Part shown: positions 4,793 to 35,048 of the stretch, piece after piece
Layout of the letters: each line of letters begins with the position of its first letter
Numbering within the stretch: position 1 is the stretch's first letter
Origin: Pedobacter sp. L105
GTDB lineage: Bacteria; Bacteroidota; Bacteroidia; Sphingobacteriales; Sphingobacteriaceae
NCBI RefSeq assembly: GCF_009765875.1
Contig: NZ_LMUP01000004.1
Coordinates: 524,056 to 588,055, forward strand
DNA: 64,000 nucleotides
Reading direction: 5' to 3'
Notes under the pieces: model-generated
Database searches by the model: none
What the model was told of the DNA's origin: nothing
What the model saw: the letters and a program-made list of their open reading frames with translations, nothing else
Made by a program: the position numbers and the translations under genes

Positions 4793-7242
4793 TATTTGGC
4801 GGGTTTTTTAGCCAGTAAATTCACAAACAAACGGTATGCTCCGGGCACACCTGCAGGCAATTCCCTGAAAAAGGACAGGGAGGTATATACAAATTTACCT
4901 TTACCATAATCCGTTACCAGCAAAGAACCCTTGCTGTTTTCTTCGCCAACATCATGCATACCTAATACGGCTGCGTAATGCGAATCGATGCTGCTGGCGA
5001 AATATAAACCGCGCTCCTGGATCCAGCCGTCGAAATCCTTACTGGTAATTTTATTCGGATAATTTAATACCTGATTACCAGGAACAAGGAAATCTACTTT
5101 AGCATTTTCATCCGTTACCCTGTCATTGCGTGTAAGCTGGAAAGGATAAGGCCCAAGATCATTGATGATCAGCGGGGCATTCACATTGTACTGCTCTACC
5201 AAAGTACCGCCATTTTTTACATAAGCCATCAGTTTTGGCTGCATAGCCGCTATATGGTCATTGATATTGTATAACCTTACACCAGTAATGATCGCATCGA
5301 AGCCAGAAAGATCTCCGCTGATTACCTGCTTTTCCGTTAGACGGGTTACCTGGTAGCCAATCTGCATCAGCGACTCCGGAATCAGGTCTCCTGCTCCGGC
5401 GATATAACCTACATTCATTCCCGCAAACTTCAGGTCTACCCTTTCTACCTTTGCTTCTGCAAAAGGAAACAAGGTTTGCGTAGGGATATGGTCGTAACTT
5501 ATCACCTTCAGTCCCTGGTGATAAGTAGCTCCATCAACGGTTACCTCCATTGATAAATCGCCACCAGAAACATCGCCAGCAGGTGTAACCGTAAACTCTA
5601 TATTTCTTTCATGCCCTTTGTGGGGAAGCCCGAAGGTGAGCCTTTCAGGGTTAACTTTCCATCCTTCAGGAACCTTTGCAACCAGTGTTCCTTCAATATT
5701 ATTCTTAAAACTCTGTAGCTGAACGGTAATTTTCTTTGGTGTATTATTGGTGAAGACATAAGCTTTTTCTGCGATCGTAGCCGTTATCGAAGGTGCAACA
5801 ACCAGGGGCTGGTACAGCTCTCCTTTTGCCGCATCTGTATGCTTATAAACTATCGGACGTGTTACATCAATAAACTGACTGCCAAAACTAATCCTGAATA
5901 CTCCTGCATGTGGTGCAGGTGCTTCTGGCATACCCAGATGGTTTAGAGAATCAATCATATAACTGCCTATCGGATGTTTTTTCAGCAGCCAGTAAGGCTG
6001 TGTAATCCCAATGGAATTGGTGCTGATGGTTCTGCTCTCTGTTACTAACTGATCAGGGAGCAGTTCCGTAATATGAGTACTATGTAATTCCTGCAAAGTG
6101 ATCTTTAGCGGAAAGCCAGCGCTCACGCGCGATATGGCGCTGATCATTACCGGTATAGAATCATTTAACGCATACGCAGGTTCCGGAGCGGTTGTTTCCA
6201 GCCATATTCCTGCACAGGCAAGAATCAGCTCATCGAGTTTCTCATGTTTAAAAGGCACGTTTTTAACTTCTTCTTTCAACTGAAGCAAAGCAGCTACAGA
6301 TTTCGAGGGATCAGCTGCATCATAACCTGCAATAATTTTATTCAGTAAGGCTTGTGCTTTTTCGGTACCAGGATTTCTGTCCAGTTTTAAATTTACCCCT
6401 TCAAAAAGATCTTTGTGTGCTGCCTCTCCACCTACCGGGCTAAAATATTCGATTACAGAACCACGTTGTCTTGCACTTCCAAATCCCTGTGTTCTATGAT
6501 TGGAACGGCTTAATGCGGCAATCTCTCCGTAACTCTCTCCCAGCAAGGGATTATATCCGCCAACATCCAGCTTCAGCTGATCATCGGACGTAGTATTTGT
6601 AGTTTCAAAATTGAAAGTATTCCAAACGATACGTTTCGCCTGCCATACTTTTACATATTGCAGCTGTTCAGGAAAACGTTTGGGATCTGCGGCGGCATAA
6701 AAAGCTTCCCTGGCTAAAATAGCCGATGCCTGGTGGTGGCCGTGTCCGGCACGTGCATCTTCGGGAAAACGGGTAATGATTACATCCGGCTGAAACTTCC
6801 GGATCATCCAAACTACATCCGAAAGGATCTGCTCTTTACCCCAGATGGTAAAACTTTCTGCAGAAGTTTTCGAAAAGCCAAAATCATTGGCCCTGCTAAA
6901 AAACTGTTCGGCACCATCAATATGTCTGGCTGCAAGCAGCTCTTGTGTACGGATCAATCCGAGCAGCTCTGCCTGTTCTGTACCGATTAAATTTTGTCCG
7001 CCATCACCCCTGGTGAGCGACAGGTAACCTGTACGCACATTCTTTTCCTTTGAAAGGTAAGCCAGCAGACGGGTATTTTCGTCATCAGGATGGGCTGCAA
7101 TATACAGCACACTGCCTGCCACATTGAGGCTGGCAAGCCCCTGCCTGATCTCTGCAGCATTTAGCTGCACAGTAGCCTGAGCCTGAAGAAAAAACGGAAC
7201 TACGATAAATAAACCAGAGAGGAGAGTTAAACGATACTTCAT
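4792..7242 (-). CDS. Secreted PIG-L family deacetylase with extra C-terminal domains
   Basis: An 816-residue protein with a signal peptide (cleavage near QAQA, residue 22). The PIG-L/LmbE zinc deacetylase domain occupies about residues 45-300: the metal-binding AAHPDDE at about 50-56 and the histidine-rich RAGHGHHQAS at about 165-175. These enzymes remove N-acetyl groups from GlcNAc-type substrates. The central 350-600 region looks beta-rich, and the C-terminal 200 residues resemble a ThuA/GATase-like fold, an arrangement seen in long Bacteroidota PIG-L proteins. It is first in an operon with a small membrane peptide and an SSS transporter. It probably acts in the periplasm on a glycan or glycoconjugate later imported. 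Confidence 0.88.
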   Translation of the reverse strand: MKYRLTLLSGLFIVVPFFLQAQATVQLNAAEIRQGLASLNVAGSVLYIAAHPDDENTRLLAYLSKEKNVRTGYLSLTRGDGGQNLIGTEQAELLGLIRTQELLAARHIDGAEQFFSRANDFGFSKTSAESFTIWGKEQILSDVVWMIRKFQPDVIITRFPEDARAGHGHHQASAILAREAFYAAADPKRFPEQLQYVKVWQAKRIVWNTFNFETTNTTSDDQLKLDVGGYNPLLGESYGEIAALSRSNHRTQGFGSARQRGSVIEYFSPVGGEAAHKDLFEGVNLKLDRNPGTEKAQALLNKIIAGYDAADPSKSVAALLQLKEEVKNVPFKHEKLDELILACAGIWLETTAPEPAYALNDSIPVMISAISRVSAGFPLKITLQELHSTHITELLPDQLVTESRTISTNSIGITQPYWLLKKHPIGSYMIDSLNHLGMPEAPAPHAGVFRISFGSQFIDVTRPIVYKHTDAAKGELYQPLVVAPSITATIAEKAYVFTNNTPKKITVQLQSFKNNIEGTLVAKVPEGWKVNPERLTFGLPHKGHERNIEFTVTPAGDVSGGDLSMEVTVDGATYHQGLKVISYDHIPTQTLFPFAEAKVERVDLKFAGMNVGYIAGAGDLIPESLMQIGYQVTRLTEKQVISGDLSGFDAIITGVRLYNINDHIAAMQPKLMAYVKNGGTLVEQYNVNAPLIINDLGPYPFQLTRNDRVTDENAKVDFLVPGNQVLNYPNKITSKDFDGWIQERGLYFASSIDSHYAAVLGMHDVGEENSKGSLLVTDYGKGKFVYTSLSFFRELPAGVPGAYRLFVNLLAKKPAK

Positions 7243-29188: not shown

Positions 29189-29416
29189 CAGTTGAGCTAT
29201 CAAAAAGCGAATATTGATGATGGCATGATCGGTTTATATTTGGTTATTTAATGATATCAAGTTATCACACAACCCATGAGAGTGAAAAAACCTTATATGA
29301 AAGGGGTAAAATATTATATGAAAACGCAATTTTTAGGGTAAAAATCTGCATTTTGCAATAATGGCTGTATATTTACACCACCAAATTAAACTTTTTCTTA
29401 TTTAACGAATATCTGT

Positions 29417-30142
29417 ATGACAATGAGCTGTATTGTAATCGATGATGAACCGCACGCTATTGAAGAGCTGGGAGAGTTGATTGGTCAGGTACCTCATCTA
29501 ACCCTGATGCAAAGTTTTCCGGATGCCAAACAGGCGATTGCTTATCTCCAGGAAACTGGTCATGCTGACATTATATTTTCCGATATCAGCATGTCTGTAC
29601 TGAATGGAATTGATGCCGCAGAGATACTGAATAATTACTGCCATTTCCTGGTTTATGTAACAGCTTATCGGGAGTATGCCCCCGAAGCGTTTGAAGCCAA
29701 AGCAGACGGATACCTGCTTAAACCTGTGAGTTATCTTTCTTTCCGGCAAAAGATAGAAGACCTGACCAATAAGTTTCAGGACATTATCCGTTTACAAAAA
29801 GATGAACATCAGTTTTTGTTTATTAAAGGCGGACAGAAAAGTAGTTATATCAAAATAAAGTATAGTGATATCGTTTACATTGAAGCCATGTTAAATTATA
29901 TTATGATCCATACCACTACAGGACATGAAATCACTTATATCGGTCTTAAAGCAATGGAGGATATGCTGCAATCAAAAGATATATTTTTTAGGATTAATAA
30001 ATCGATTATTATTTCATTGAATTATCTGGATCGCGTAGATGGGAATATAGCGAGGTTGGCCAATGGACAGAGTTATCAGGTTGGGGAGAAGTATAAAAGT
30101 GTGTTTCTTGAGTTTTTGAAGAAACACACTTTGAGGCCTTAA
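29417..30142 (+). CDS. LytTR-family response regulator of the RiPP locus
   Basis: A 241-residue protein. The receiver domain (1-115) has the acidic DDE at about 10, the phospho-acceptor Asp in FSDISMSVLNG (about 54-58), and Lys in LLKPVSY. The LytTR DNA-binding domain (about 140-240) has IKYSDIVYIEAMLNYIMIHT and RINKSIIISLNYLD. Its partner kinase is encoded downstream at 30380, with the RiPP precursor gene on the opposite strand in between. LytTR/LytS-type systems often control bacteriocin production, as AlgR/AgrA relatives do, so control of the locus is likely but inferred. Confidence 0.93.
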   Translation: MTMSCIVIDDEPHAIEELGELIGQVPHLTLMQSFPDAKQAIAYLQETGHADIIFSDISMSVLNGIDAAEILNNYCHFLVYVTAYREYAPEAFEAKADGYLLKPVSYLSFRQKIEDLTNKFQDIIRLQKDEHQFLFIKGGQKSSYIKIKYSDIVYIEAMLNYIMIHTTTGHEITYIGLKAMEDMLQSKDIFFRINKSIIISLNYLDRVDGNIARLANGQSYQVGEKYKSVFLEFLKKHTLRP

Positions 30143-30163
30143 AATCATAATACTTCTGGAGAA

Positions 30164-30310
30164 TTAGAATAGTGATTGACCTGTGTTCGTAGTTGTAATT
30201 GTTGTACCACTGGGATCACCTGTTGGAACAAAACTTTGAACATTTAATTTCTTCCCAAAAGAAAACAGAGTTTTCTTTGTTAGTTTGAGGTTTTTTCTGG
30301 TTAATTTCAT
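30164..30310 (-). CDS. Class I lanthipeptide-like precursor peptide, cysteine-free
   Basis: A 48-residue peptide, too short for routine calling, with ATG at 30310-30308 and TAA at 30166-30164. The leader KLTRKNLKLTKKTLFSF matches the LxLxKKT(I/L) leader of Bacteroidota class I lanthipeptides. Residues 26-48 form the likely core with 10 Ser/Thr of 23, including the stretch SGTTITTTNTGQS. There is no cysteine anywhere. A LanB dehydratase is encoded 1.2 kb away. Without Cys it cannot form lanthionine rings, so the product would be a dehydroamino-acid peptide or be modified otherwise. It lies opposite to, and between, the response regulator and kinase genes. Confidence 0.75.
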   Translation of the reverse strand: MKLTRKNLKLTKKTLFSFGKKLNVQSFVPTGDPSGTTITTTNTGQSLF

Positions 30311-30379
30311 AACAATGGTTTTTTAAATGACGCCCAATGTTATCCCAGAAAAAAAAGGCTCGCACCTTTATTATATTAC

Positions 30380-31435
30380 ATGGTTAAAATATTATACAAA
30401 GGCCCTTTAAAGCTCAAAAAAGCCCTTTTTATCCACATTATTTGTTGGATGGTTTTCATTATTTATGAAGTTAGTATTGTAGGATATATGTCTGGATTTC
30501 GCCCATTCATACATTATCTATTATTCTATATTATTAATATCAGTATCTTTTATTTTCACTCTTTGTTTCTCCTTAACTATTCGTCCGCAAACTTCACAGT
30601 TAACCTTTGGCGTATCCCTCTCTTCGTAGTTTTAGAAATTTTTGTATATACTATAATATCTTTATTCATAACTTTCCTTTTAAATAAATACCTGTATCAC
30701 GACTCTTCACAAGAAAAATTACTAAATTATCAATACGTACCAACCTCAATTTATAGAGGCACATATTTCGTTTTATATGGAACAGGTTACTATTTTTTAA
30801 TCAATTACGTCCGTAAGAAAGAAAAAACACTTACCCAAGCCATAGAAAATGAAAAACTCCAAAACGAAGTCCTTCGTGCAGAACAGGATTTCCTGAGAGC
30901 CCAAATCAATCCTCACCTGCTGTTCAACACCTTAAGTTTCATTAAATACGCCGCTAAGAAAAAACCTGAAGAAGCAGATGAAGCTGTGATGAGATTATCC
31001 TCAATTATGAGTTTCGCACTCGATAACAATAGTCAATCTATATTACTCAATAAAGAGATAGACCAGGTAGAAAATATCATTGGGTTAAATCAGCTACGTT
31101 ATAACCGAACACTGAATATCAAATTCAAACAAAACCTGGAGAATGACCAGGCCACCATTATTCCCATTATATTGCTCACGCTGGCAGAAAATGTTTTTAA
31201 ACATGGCAACCTACTGGACGGCAATCATCCGGCAGAAATTAATGTAGAAGCTACACAGGAATATGTGTTATTGCAGACCAGGAACCTACCCTCTCAGGAC
31301 AACAAAATCAAAAGTCACCATACAGGATTAACCAATATGCGCTCAAGGCTGGAACAGTTTTATAAAGATAAGTATCATTTCGACTACGGTCAGGATGGAG
31401 ATATATTTAAAGTCGATATAAAAATATATCTATAA
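30380..31435 (+). CDS. LytS-type sensor histidine kinase of the RiPP locus
   Basis: A 351-residue membrane kinase. The N-terminal 150 residues carry four hydrophobic segments (helices near 15-35, 42-65, 75-100 and 125-145) with short loops, so the sensor is mainly membrane-embedded. The His_kinase domain (PF06580) has AQINPHLLFNTLSFI, with the phospho-His at about residue 179. The ATPase part is reduced and ends HHTGLTNMRSRLEQFY. Base composition is visibly AT-rich compared with flanking core genes. It probably senses an extracellular or membrane-inserted peptide, perhaps the RiPP product, which is inference. Confidence 0.9.
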   Translation: MVKILYKGPLKLKKALFIHIICWMVFIIYEVSIVGYMSGFRPFIHYLLFYIINISIFYFHSLFLLNYSSANFTVNLWRIPLFVVLEIFVYTIISLFITFLLNKYLYHDSSQEKLLNYQYVPTSIYRGTYFVLYGTGYYFLINYVRKKEKTLTQAIENEKLQNEVLRAEQDFLRAQINPHLLFNTLSFIKYAAKKKPEEADEAVMRLSSIMSFALDNNSQSILLNKEIDQVENIIGLNQLRYNRTLNIKFKQNLENDQATIIPIILLTLAENVFKHGNLLDGNHPAEINVEATQEYVLLQTRNLPSQDNKIKSHHTGLTNMRSRLEQFYKDKYHFDYGQDGDIFKVDIKIYL

Positions 31436-31506
31436 CAATTAAACATTAACGCTAAAAAAGTATCTTTATTAAGTAATATATATGTTATTACACATAATAT
31501 AGATTT

Positions 31507-34326
31507 ATGAAGTTAACTCTCTCCGCGCAAGGCATTTGCCGTACGCCAATATTTTCTATTAACGAAGAACTGGAAACAGTATGGAATGAACTTAAAGGGT
31601 ACATTCATGAATCATCCCCCGTCTTTTTTGAAGTGATTAAAAACTTAGCTTATGAAGAGCTGCAGCTTGCAGAACCTAAAATCAGGTTTACCATCTGGAA
31701 GTATTTTAACCGGGCGAGGTTCAGGGCTACTCCTTATGGTAATTTTGCAGCATTCACTCTTGTGCCTGTGAGCAGGGAGAACCATACAGATCCTATCGTT
31801 TTACAAAAAAAAACTATAGAACACCGTTTCGCCAACTGGCAGGAAAAAGAAAATGTAAGCCTTGACCCAAGATGGCTGAGCCTCCACGCAAATTACTTCC
31901 GTTCGAATACAACTTCTTACCGCTGCGGGGATGAATTACGTTTTGTGAATATCGCTGACGGATCTTTTGAACTATCTGCTGTAGAGATTGAAGATACAAC
32001 AATGGCCACCCTGGATTTTTGCCTTTCTAAACGTACTTTAAAAGAGCTACAGACCTTCTTACAGGACAATTATAGATTAAGCCGTGCTATTACAAATTTC
32101 CTGCTGGAACAGCTGATTGGCCTTCAGCTGCTGCTCACTGATTTTCAACCTAATATTATTGGCACAGACTACTTCAGCAGGATCGCCTATCCCTCTGCCG
32201 AAAAGAAAAATGATTATATCATTGCCGAACGCAGCAGGATAAACGGTCATTTGTCTGAAAAAAATCTCCAGGTATTAATCGAAGTGACAGATTTTCTGTG
32301 TAAACACAGCTTTGTTAGCGGTAATCCGGCATTAAAAGATTTCATGGAAAACTTTATCAAAAGATTTGACAATAAAGAAGTCCCTTTATTGGTTGTTATG
32401 GACCCGGAAATTGGTATTGGTTACAAATCACTGGCGCATGATAAAGAAGAAGATCAGTTGGTACAAGATTTAAAAATATTCAGGAAGGAATCAGAAACGG
32501 CCATTAGAAACCTCAAATATTCTCCATTATATCAGTTCATTTTAAATGAAATGGTGCAGCATCAAATTGTACAGCTTATTGATTTTAAAGACAGTACGCT
32601 CCTCAATAAAATCCCTGTAGCCAATACGATGAGTGTGATGTTGCAATACACGGATGAGCACCTGATCATTGAACAGATTGGCGGCTCAACAGCCAATTCT
32701 CTCTTAGGAAGGTTTTCTATGGCTAGTGATGAGATCACACAGATGGGAATACAGTATGCAGACCTGGAACGTTATGCCAATCCGGGAGTGATGTTCTTTG
32801 ATATCGCTTATCAGATTGAGAAGAATACGGATAATATCAACCGGAGAAAATCTATATACAATTGTGAACTTCCCATTTTAAGCTGGCCGGAAAGTGAGCA
32901 GGTATTGGATCCAAATGATGTAATGGTGAGTGTGAAGGGTGACGAAATCATCCTCCATTCGGTAAAATATGGTAAACGCCTGGTTCCAAAATTAGCATCG
33001 GCATACAATTATGCAAGGTCTGACCTGGCCATTTATCGTTTTCTCTCAGATCTTCAGCACCAGAACCTAAATTCCAACATAGGCATCAACATAGTAGATG
33101 TGTTTCCAGGCCTTTCACATTATCAAAGAATACAGTACAAACACGTTGTCCTCTCTGCAGAAAAATGGCTGGTTCCAAAAGCTGTCTGCATGGAAACAAA
33201 TACAGACCTCTCCTATTCTACCTTAAAGCGCTGGTTGATTGATATTCAACTAAATAAGCTTTTCAAGTGTGGTTTTGCAGATCAGACACTTATTTTTAAT
33301 CCGGATGCGGAAGAAGATTTACGTTCTTTCCTGTTATTCTGCAGAAATAAAACTGGACTGTATATTGAAGAGGCCTTCATTCCTGATCGTCCTTTGGTAA
33401 ATGACGAAAACCATCAAGGTTATGTAGCTGAATTTATTGTGAACCTGGAACATGAGAATCAATTGTACCAGGCTTATCCCCTAAAGGGCAGTGATCATAA
33501 AAAAGTTACGGATACCTATTTACCCGGAGCTGAGTGGCTCTATTTTGAAATCTATTGCCATCCTTCAAAGAGTGATTTTATCCTGCTTTATCTATTGGAA
33601 AAATACCTTATTCCGCTAAGAAAAAAGTTGAAAAACTGGTTTTTTATCCGTTATAACGACCCTTCCTACCATATCAGGTTAAGACTTCGCTTAACAAGCA
33701 TTACAGACATTAGCGCATTTATTTCCTGTCTTTCCACCCTGCTGGAACCCTATGTTAGGATCGGCATCATTGCCGATATGCAACTTAAAACTTACCGCCG
33801 GGAAAATGAGCGCTACGGACCTTCAAGAATAGAATTGGTAGAAAAATGTTTTGGTGTAGACAGTAAACTGGTGCTTAACCTGATCAGGAAACCTGCTGCG
33901 GTTAACTGGCTGTATAACTTTTCCCTGAGCTTGCTGGAAAACGTTTGCGAAGCAGCCGGATACAGTATTCATGAACAGCTGTTTTTTGCAGAAAATATGG
34001 CCGGCTATTTTATTGAAGAAATGAAGATCTCTACGGAAGGGTTTAAAAAAATCAACCAGGTATACAAAGATTTCAGCATTGATAGCGCCAGAATGCATTT
34101 GAACAAATCGCAGAAAAAAAAACTCTCCCAAACTGCACAAAGCTTTTTGAATGTTTTAAACGCCAGTCTGCCAGAGGAAAAAAACACGCTTTTATCTGAT
34201 CTTTTCCATATGCACACCAACAGGCTTTTCAGTGACGACCAGCGCATCCACGAAATGGTCATGTACCATTATCTGACCAGAAAGTTAAAGATGAAAATAG
34301 GCAGACAACAGCAAAAAAAAGAATAA
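31507..34326 (+). CDS. lanB: Full-length lantibiotic dehydratase (LanB) with elimination domain
   Basis: A 939-residue enzyme. The LanB N-terminal glutamylation domain includes the hallmark FRATPYGNFAAF at about residue 76-87 and runs to about 640. The C-terminal thiopeptide/SpaB-type elimination domain (about 655-920) has EWLYFEIYCHPSK, WFFIRYNDPSYHIRLRLR and the typical RYGPSRIELVE. LanB uses glutamyl-tRNA to activate Ser/Thr of a precursor and then eliminates glutamate to make dehydroalanine/dehydrobutyrine. Both domains are fused here, as in NisB. There is no LanC in the window. The only precursor seen is the Cys-free peptide at 30164-30310. Confidence 0.93.
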   Translation: MKLTLSAQGICRTPIFSINEELETVWNELKGYIHESSPVFFEVIKNLAYEELQLAEPKIRFTIWKYFNRARFRATPYGNFAAFTLVPVSRENHTDPIVLQKKTIEHRFANWQEKENVSLDPRWLSLHANYFRSNTTSYRCGDELRFVNIADGSFELSAVEIEDTTMATLDFCLSKRTLKELQTFLQDNYRLSRAITNFLLEQLIGLQLLLTDFQPNIIGTDYFSRIAYPSAEKKNDYIIAERSRINGHLSEKNLQVLIEVTDFLCKHSFVSGNPALKDFMENFIKRFDNKEVPLLVVMDPEIGIGYKSLAHDKEEDQLVQDLKIFRKESETAIRNLKYSPLYQFILNEMVQHQIVQLIDFKDSTLLNKIPVANTMSVMLQYTDEHLIIEQIGGSTANSLLGRFSMASDEITQMGIQYADLERYANPGVMFFDIAYQIEKNTDNINRRKSIYNCELPILSWPESEQVLDPNDVMVSVKGDEIILHSVKYGKRLVPKLASAYNYARSDLAIYRFLSDLQHQNLNSNIGINIVDVFPGLSHYQRIQYKHVVLSAEKWLVPKAVCMETNTDLSYSTLKRWLIDIQLNKLFKCGFADQTLIFNPDAEEDLRSFLLFCRNKTGLYIEEAFIPDRPLVNDENHQGYVAEFIVNLEHENQLYQAYPLKGSDHKKVTDTYLPGAEWLYFEIYCHPSKSDFILLYLLEKYLIPLRKKLKNWFFIRYNDPSYHIRLRLRLTSITDISAFISCLSTLLEPYVRIGIIADMQLKTYRRENERYGPSRIELVEKCFGVDSKLVLNLIRKPAAVNWLYNFSLSLLENVCEAAGYSIHEQLFFAENMAGYFIEEMKISTEGFKKINQVYKDFSIDSARMHLNKSQKKKLSQTAQSFLNVLNASLPEEKNTLLSDLFHMHTNRLFSDDQRIHEMVMYHYLTRKLKMKIGRQQQKKE

Positions 34327-34475
34327 AAGCCAAAGAAGTCAATCAGCTGAATTTCTAAAATTAATTTGCAAAATAAGCTTGAGATTCAACAAAATTACTA
34401 TTTTTACAAAGTGGTAACATTGCATTGTCGGTTATATTAAATATTTAGCCGGTTTTTGCACGCTAAAGATGATTT

Positions 34476-35048
34476 ATGAAACCTTTGATCAAAAATTATT
34501 TTAACGCTCCATCATTATTGATGTCAAGCTTAGAAGCCATTGAACGCTTCCAATTGGCACATAAGAATTATCTGAAAGCAGATAATGAGGAGTCAAGAAA
34601 GTCAATGGCACAGGCACTCCAAACAGTAAAGCTGCTGCAAACAGAGTTGTCCACCCCCGATCCTTCGGCAGACAAAATAAGGTTAGCCTTTATTCAGCAG
34701 GTCACGACACTGGAAGCAAATATCGATCATATTCATTTGGATGGCTTGTACCCCGATCTGTACCGGGACAGCGAGTCAAATTTCCGGTTACTAATCGATA
34801 TTCTGGATAGTTTTAAAATAACGCTTTTATCTAAAGGAGAGTCTGTTCCATTTGTAGAACTCTCTTCCAGCAGCAATGAGTGGAAAGATCATGGTGTGGT
34901 GGCTTTCTGCAGGGATGTGAGAAATCATTTACAGCCCTCTAAGTTTAACAGCCTGTGGGATGCACTACAGTGTTTTCAGAAAAACAAATCACAGCTTACC
35001 TATACTTTTGAAATCCTTTCACTGACGGGAAATCTGGGTAAGCATTAA
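34476..35048 (+). CDS. Unknown protein of the RiPP locus
   Basis: A 190-residue soluble, mostly helical protein with no signal or membrane helix. I do not recognise a family. Visible features are a helical first half (LEAIERFQLAHKNYLKAD), an acidic middle (DLYRDSESNFRLLIDILDSF), and a C-terminal FCRDVRNHLQPSKFNSLW. Two Cys (about 143 and 166) are isolated. It lies on the same strand 150 bp after lanB and 80 bp before tRNA-Arg, so it probably belongs to the locus. It is not a LanC cyclase: no zinc-ligand pattern is seen. A role in transport, immunity or tailoring is possible but not supported by sequence. Confidence 0.7.
   Translation: MKPLIKNYFNAPSLLMSSLEAIERFQLAHKNYLKADNEESRKSMAQALQTVKLLQTELSTPDPSADKIRLAFIQQVTTLEANIDHIHLDGLYPDLYRDSESNFRLLIDILDSFKITLLSKGESVPFVELSSSSNEWKDHGVVAFCRDVRNHLQPSKFNSLWDALQCFQKNKSQLTYTFEILSLTGNLGKH

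Follow-up and report, generated by a model that had tools for sequence, protein, structure and literature searches.

Signalling by peptides is well documented among Gram-positive bacteria, and in agr the peptide and its sensor are variable while the kinase and response regulator are conserved. Linaridins are dehydrated peptides without lanthionine. No pheromone system based on dehydrated peptides is known to us from Bacteroidota, and the searchable literature yielded none. Class I lanthipeptide clusters (nisin, with NisB and NisC, and those of Bacteroidota) share with the Pedobacter cassette described here a full-length LanB, the NisB residues, a leader and a Ser/Thr-rich core, and the cassette's histidine kinase (HK) and response regulator (RR) genes lie beside the precursor, as in nisin autoinduction. 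Unlike those clusters, the cassette has no LanC, no Cys and no transporter, protease or immunity gene, and it has a LytS/LytTR pair, satellites that lack LanB, and LanBs that fall outside the LanC-linked clade. In agr, ComCDE and streptococcal sil, as in the cassette, a peptide gene stands beside genes for a polytopic HK (predicted here) and a LytTR RR and is preceded by LytTR-type direct repeats (putative sites here); the agr pattern also recurs, the peptide and the sensor varying and the kinase and RR being conserved. In sil, transcription of the peptide opposes that of the SilA-SilB pair (PMC2766830), and the cassette peptide gene likewise runs against its two-component genes. The cassette differs from the LytTR pheromone systems in its Gram-negative Bacteroidota hosts, in its LytS-type PF06580 kinase, and in having a lantibiotic dehydratase as modifier and no AgrB/ComAB-like processing or export gene beside it. 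Cyanotins with Cys-free cores (PMC7268733) and linaridins also combine a RiPP-type precursor that is poor in or free of Cys with a homologue of a dehydratase or synthetase; however, they have other enzymes, occur in other phyla and lack a peptide-HK-RR cassette. A literature search for LanB without LanC found nothing relevant, the primary papers on P. lusitanus lanthipeptides (Caetano 2020; Bothwell 2021) being outside its scope. The parts are known; their combination is not described in the searchable literature, and overlap with the P. lusitanus lanthipeptide work is possible.

The window analysed is a 64,000-nucleotide stretch of the Pedobacter sp. L105 genome. Open reading frames and Pfam searches recovered, in place, all five genes of a preliminary description of this DNA, including the complete LanB, LytTR regulator, LytS-type kinase and extra protein that it had named:

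29293..29323, plus strand: direct repeat TTATATGAAA-N11-TTATATGAAA, 21-bp period, putative LytTR site, 93 bp before the RR start
29417..30142, plus strand: LytTR response regulator (RR), 241 aa; Pfam Response_reg and LytTR; acceptor Asp at about residue 56
30164..30310, minus strand: precursor peptide MKLTRKNLKLTKKTLFSFGKKLNVQSFVPTGDPSGTTITTTNTGQSLF, 48 aa, no Cys; frame, place and strand kept in relatives
30369..30396, minus strand: direct repeat TATAATA-N14-TATAATA, 21-bp period, putative LytTR site between precursor and HK, overlapping the HK start codon
30380..31435, plus strand: LytS-type histidine kinase (HK), 351 aa; Pfam His_kinase PF06580; His179 in INPH; N-box ENVFKH
31507..34326, plus strand: full-length LanB dehydratase, 939 aa; glutamylation and elimination domains; Pfam Lant_dehydr_N (1e-48) and Lant_dehydr_C (5e-53)
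34476..35048, plus strand: 190-aa protein, clade-specific; 3' of LanB in 13/13 window-clade loci

The gene order of the window clade is RR, precursor on the opposite strand, HK, LanB and the 190-aa gene. As had also been stated, the locus is without LanC: PF05147 is absent from it, and the single PF05147 match in the genome lies ~0.57 Mb away on the same contig. The 190-aa protein is accessory at best, since it is confined to the window clade (13 loci) and its three distant homologues lie beside none of LanB, HK or RR; it has no Pfam match, and its AlphaFold model (pLDDT 54) is uninformative. A second LanB cassette is present in the same genome (L051, 9020-14082 on contig C19), with a LanB of 1004 aa, an RR, an HK and a divergent, Cys-free precursor, MKKSLEKSLKLEIKPVFQFSKSENSRQNFSDPITTTTATTTGVFQKPDAR.

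Both the glutamylation and the elimination sites expected of a class I LanB are intact, as judged from Pfam and aligned NisB residues. The window LanB matched NisB in the PDB with an E value of 3e-14 over query residues 243-925, its C-terminal two thirds, and its N-terminal glutamylation motif aligns with NisB only in a weak second segment. Equivalents of NisB K79, R83, R87, T89, R784, R786, E823, R826 and H961 are kept, and R83, R87, R784, R786, E823 and H961 (NisB numbering) are invariant across 79 aligned LanBs. In NisB, R83 and R87 mutants are impaired and H961A abolishes dehydration (PMC4341554). Two named relatives, P. westerhofensis and Pedobacter sp. MC2016-15, have LanBs 57-58% identical to that of the window. 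At L083 (6001-8807, genome G020) LanB is broken into two ORFs near 7240, with HK, RR and precursor in the same region, several kb from the split LanB.

A 48-codon ORF in a 240-bp gap arises in 5% of shuffles and is by itself unremarkable. The preliminary description had made its reading depend on conservation of the 48-residue frame, and a related minus-strand ORF indeed occupies the same place in every RR-HK gap of 12 close relatives. Selection on the precursors is purifying, with a pN/pS of 0.20 for between-locus pairs at 70-95% identity and of 0.16 for copies within an array, and third codon positions carry 62% of the differences within the family; conservation and codon-position bias together rule out a spurious ORF. 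The window precursor was matched by precursor HMMs at E values of 1e-13 and 1.5e-12, the window peptide itself being among the seeds. Constraint in the window clade falls on the leader (ratio 0.29) far more than on the core (0.64).

The proposed Ser/Thr-rich core without Cys was borne out: the window precursor lacks Cys, and Ser/Thr make up 41% of its C-terminal 22 residues, compared with 12% in the large ORFs of the window. Cys is absent from 112 of the 118 distinct precursors (127 copies in total). A Cys-containing precursor in relatives had been named as evidence against the proposal; the few Cys found there are mostly single and not conserved, and do not in substance amount to one. The "class I lanthipeptide leader" stood in part. 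The family has a common leader motif, L-x-K-K-T-x-F-V-Y/F-K, and the resemblance holds, but membership in a known leader family does not, since among 42 precursors none matched an NCBIfam model at E<=1 and the Pfam matches were scattered and attributable to chance; we therefore speak of resemblance to class I lanthipeptide leaders only.

LanB relatives were found in 115 and precursors in 107 of 145 Pedobacter genomes. Precursor, RR, HK and lanB stay together in relatives, as the preliminary description had wished to see established, with HK and RR close to LanB in 78 of the 80 LanB loci read. The HMM detected a precursor in 65 of these 80, and most HMM-negative loci have a candidate peptide visible divergent from HK; in all, a precursor-family peptide divergent from HK is present in nearly all of the 80 loci. 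The peptide gene thus adjoins an HK and a LytTR RR across genomes, as in pheromone systems. In the wider genus LanB is oriented towards HK, and the gap holds one to eight or nine precursors. At L185 (349-1305), an array of five near-identical 49-aa peptides, MSKLNLFKTAKNSANKNVRNFSAAAAPDQNQLEGGVIVGTDEWYVVVSW, lies beside another biosynthetic cluster. Several unrelated genomic neighbourhoods harbour the cassette, and around the LanB loci no transporter, protease, LanC or immunity gene is conserved beside it, which answers the question of flanking LanC, transporter and protease genes that had been raised at the outset. Precursor matches were obtained in 4 of 25 genera sampled within the family; a sparse class-wide sample placed precursors in Pedobacter only, although the family search shows that a few other genera also carry them.

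Precursor copies far from LanB, here termed satellites, are numerous and occur in many species, and they define what is conserved. All 18 that were read show RR, precursor on the opposite strand and HK without LanB; by orthology they amount to about ten types rather than to 18 independent events. The RR is intact in 16 and 5'-truncated in two, and the three ortholog groups measured are under purifying selection. Because every satellite keeps the same arrangement without LanB, the conserved unit is the peptide with its HK and RR. This minimal unit replaces the "compact RiPP locus" of the preliminary description, and its occurrence without LanB points to signalling rather than to an ordinary RiPP product. 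Among the 145 genomes, 106 have both precursor and LanB, 1 precursor only, 9 LanB only and 29 neither (Fisher p 2e-21), a co-occurrence that may be favoured by an HMM seeded partly from LanB loci; the sole precursor genome without LanB is an 80%-complete MAG. The simplest reading of these sequences is that one LanB would serve several peptide-HK-RR units through the common leader motif.

The top direct-repeat spacing upstream of precursors is 21 bp in the window clade (z 4.9), in the wider LanB loci (z 6.0) and in satellites (z 3.2), and 21-bp repeats are also enriched upstream of RR genes (z 5.0 and 6.0). A general promoter feature is ruled out by 268 control upstream regions from the same contigs, which show no 21-bp peak (z 1.4). 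The repeats bound by LytTR domains are 9 bp long and separated by 12 bp, and those bound by SilA are 10 bp long and separated by 11 bp (PMC2766830); the 21-bp repeats match this rule. Since LytTR-type repeats precede both precursor and RR genes, autoregulation by the RR through these putative sites is likely. Upstream of LanB, a 21-bp peak is present in the wider loci (z 5.5) and absent in the window clade, where LanB may be co-transcribed with HK. The window RR site is a perfect 10/10 TTATATGAAA repeat with no other exact match in the genome. Genome-wide searches gave 6 matches to TATAATA-N14-TATAATA (loose) against 1 in the control, and 9 matches to TTATATGAAA-N11-TTATATGAAA (<=3 mismatches) against 8, so that no regulon could be called.

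The HK N-terminus (~1-137) appears helical and membrane-embedded, and hydropathy and a low-confidence AlphaFold model (pLDDT 63) are consistent with a polytopic HK that has no extracytoplasmic domain. Across the 13 window-clade loci, the core averages 25% identity and the HK sensor 45%, against 71% in the kinase part and 86% in the RR. With kinase and RR removed, core distance tracks HK-sensor distance among 79 cassettes (partial Mantel r 0.26, p 0.001); leader distance does not (r 0.05, p 0.11). This co-variation fits a peptide read by the HK sensor, with shared ancestry not fully removed by the Mantel test. Sensor domains in the membrane often change faster than kinase domains do, and fast-evolving parts combined with shared ancestry can mimic co-variation of core and sensor.

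The gene set probably makes an altered, Cys-free peptide and senses it by its own two-component switch. The explanation that we favour, and consider rather likely, is a peptide-signal cassette that regulates itself; its LanB would dehydrate the peptide, leaving it uncyclised, and would serve the satellites in trans as well. Its basis in the sequence is gene content, layout, conservation, catalytic residues, repeats, co-occurrence and co-variation; from these we infer dehydration, trans action, export, peptide sensing and autoinduction. A short precursor would be made from the gene divergent from its sensor kinase. LanB would bind the common leader motif and then glutamylate and eliminate core Ser/Thr, and the product would be a linear, electrophilic peptide rich in dehydrobutyrine and dehydroalanine. 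With no Cys and no LanC, lanthionine cyclisation is not expected, and the LanB-only, Cys-free, dehydroamino-acid-rich product foreseen in the preliminary description gains support as a prediction. The peptide would be exported and sensed by the membrane-embedded domain of its cognate HK, which would phosphorylate the LytTR RR; the RR would then bind the 21-bp repeats that precede the precursor gene and the RR gene itself, allowing autoinduction. Peptides of LanB-less cassettes would probably be modified in trans by the one LanB. Export is the weakest link, as the cassette encodes neither an exporter nor a leader protease and no secretion signal is evident in the peptide.

More specifically, the products may be linear, Cys-free, LanB-dehydrated pheromones for dedicated LytS/LytTR pairs, several private channels per genome sharing one LanB, and would then represent a new kind of communication among Bacteroidota, a proposal that we put forward tentatively. 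Four loci (L069, L084, L089 and L091) have ~930-aa LanBs beside which peptide candidates end in SKTC, STCCP, STCCH and SKTCG, and no LanC was found near them; these single or paired C-terminal Cys count against the signal-cassette explanation.

That satellites have HK/RR and no LanB, that the core co-varies with the HK sensor, and that immunity, transporter and protease genes are not conserved, all make it unlikely that LanB makes a dehydrated antimicrobial or surface-active peptide whose production the HK/RR only regulates on another cue. This effector would nevertheless be in keeping with the usual products of LanB clusters, with tandem arrays of up to eight or nine near-identical precursors, which suit a bulk product, and with the lantibiotic-like loci with their own HK/RR in the genus (L052). 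Alternatively, the peptide, modified or not, might act on the HK inside the cell and never be exported, as its strict pairing with HK and the lack of an exporter or signal sequence would allow. We regard this as quite improbable, given that HK variation is concentrated in the membrane part, not the cytosolic part, and that the Ser/Thr-rich tail and the link to LanB suit a modified product.

LanC is present in 52 of the 145 genomes and absent from the entire genome in 58 of the 107 with precursors. LanC-linked LanBs (~1032-1049 aa) form a separate clade with support 1.0, which includes the LanC loci L178 (left half), L179, L180, L182 and L183 and also L052. The LanC clusters read mostly have GG-leader precursors with Cys-rich C-terminal cores, usually with a C39-type transporter, and the missing Cys and LanC of the window system are therefore not simply a habit of the genus. 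An exception is L052 (602-13354, contig C23 of the window's own genome), which holds the genome's only LanC, a 1049-aa LanB, an ABC transporter of C39 type, an HK/RR and two small ORFs with GG leaders and putative cores that lack Cys. Cys-free peptides of 51-53 aa are found in LanB clusters of the LanC-linked clade at L180 (4-1367), L182 (15646-15801) and L185 (12958-13119); that of L180 is divergent from HK, which suggests separate signal and effector peptides. A LanC nearby in relatives had also been named as evidence against the preliminary reading. One relative, G067, has LanC within 10 kb of a cassette (L178), but that LanC is part of a separate cluster, which has its own LanB and a Cys-containing precursor of its own. 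In substance, none of the three refuting observations that the preliminary description had listed was made.

An ordinary class I lanthipeptide with split genes (a distant LanC, or free thiols) is scarcely credible: LanB is a true class I dehydratase, LanC occurs in part of the genus and a few precursors have one Cys, but the window peptide and nearly all distinct precursors have none, LanC goes with its own LanB clade and Cys-rich precursors, and the 58 LanC-free precursor genomes together with the missing Cys rule out a LanC in trans. The cassette product is not a lanthipeptide by definition, as the two defining features tested, LanC and Cys, both fail.

The cassette may be an unrecognised peptide signalling system in Pedobacter, one missed by genome mining on LanC and Cys-containing precursors (such as PMC7268733). 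If so, the role of LanB would extend beyond lanthionine rings, and many "class I lanthipeptide" annotations in Pedobacter would have to be changed. The genus would then also supply natural families of peptides matched to their receptors, in which specificity could be studied.
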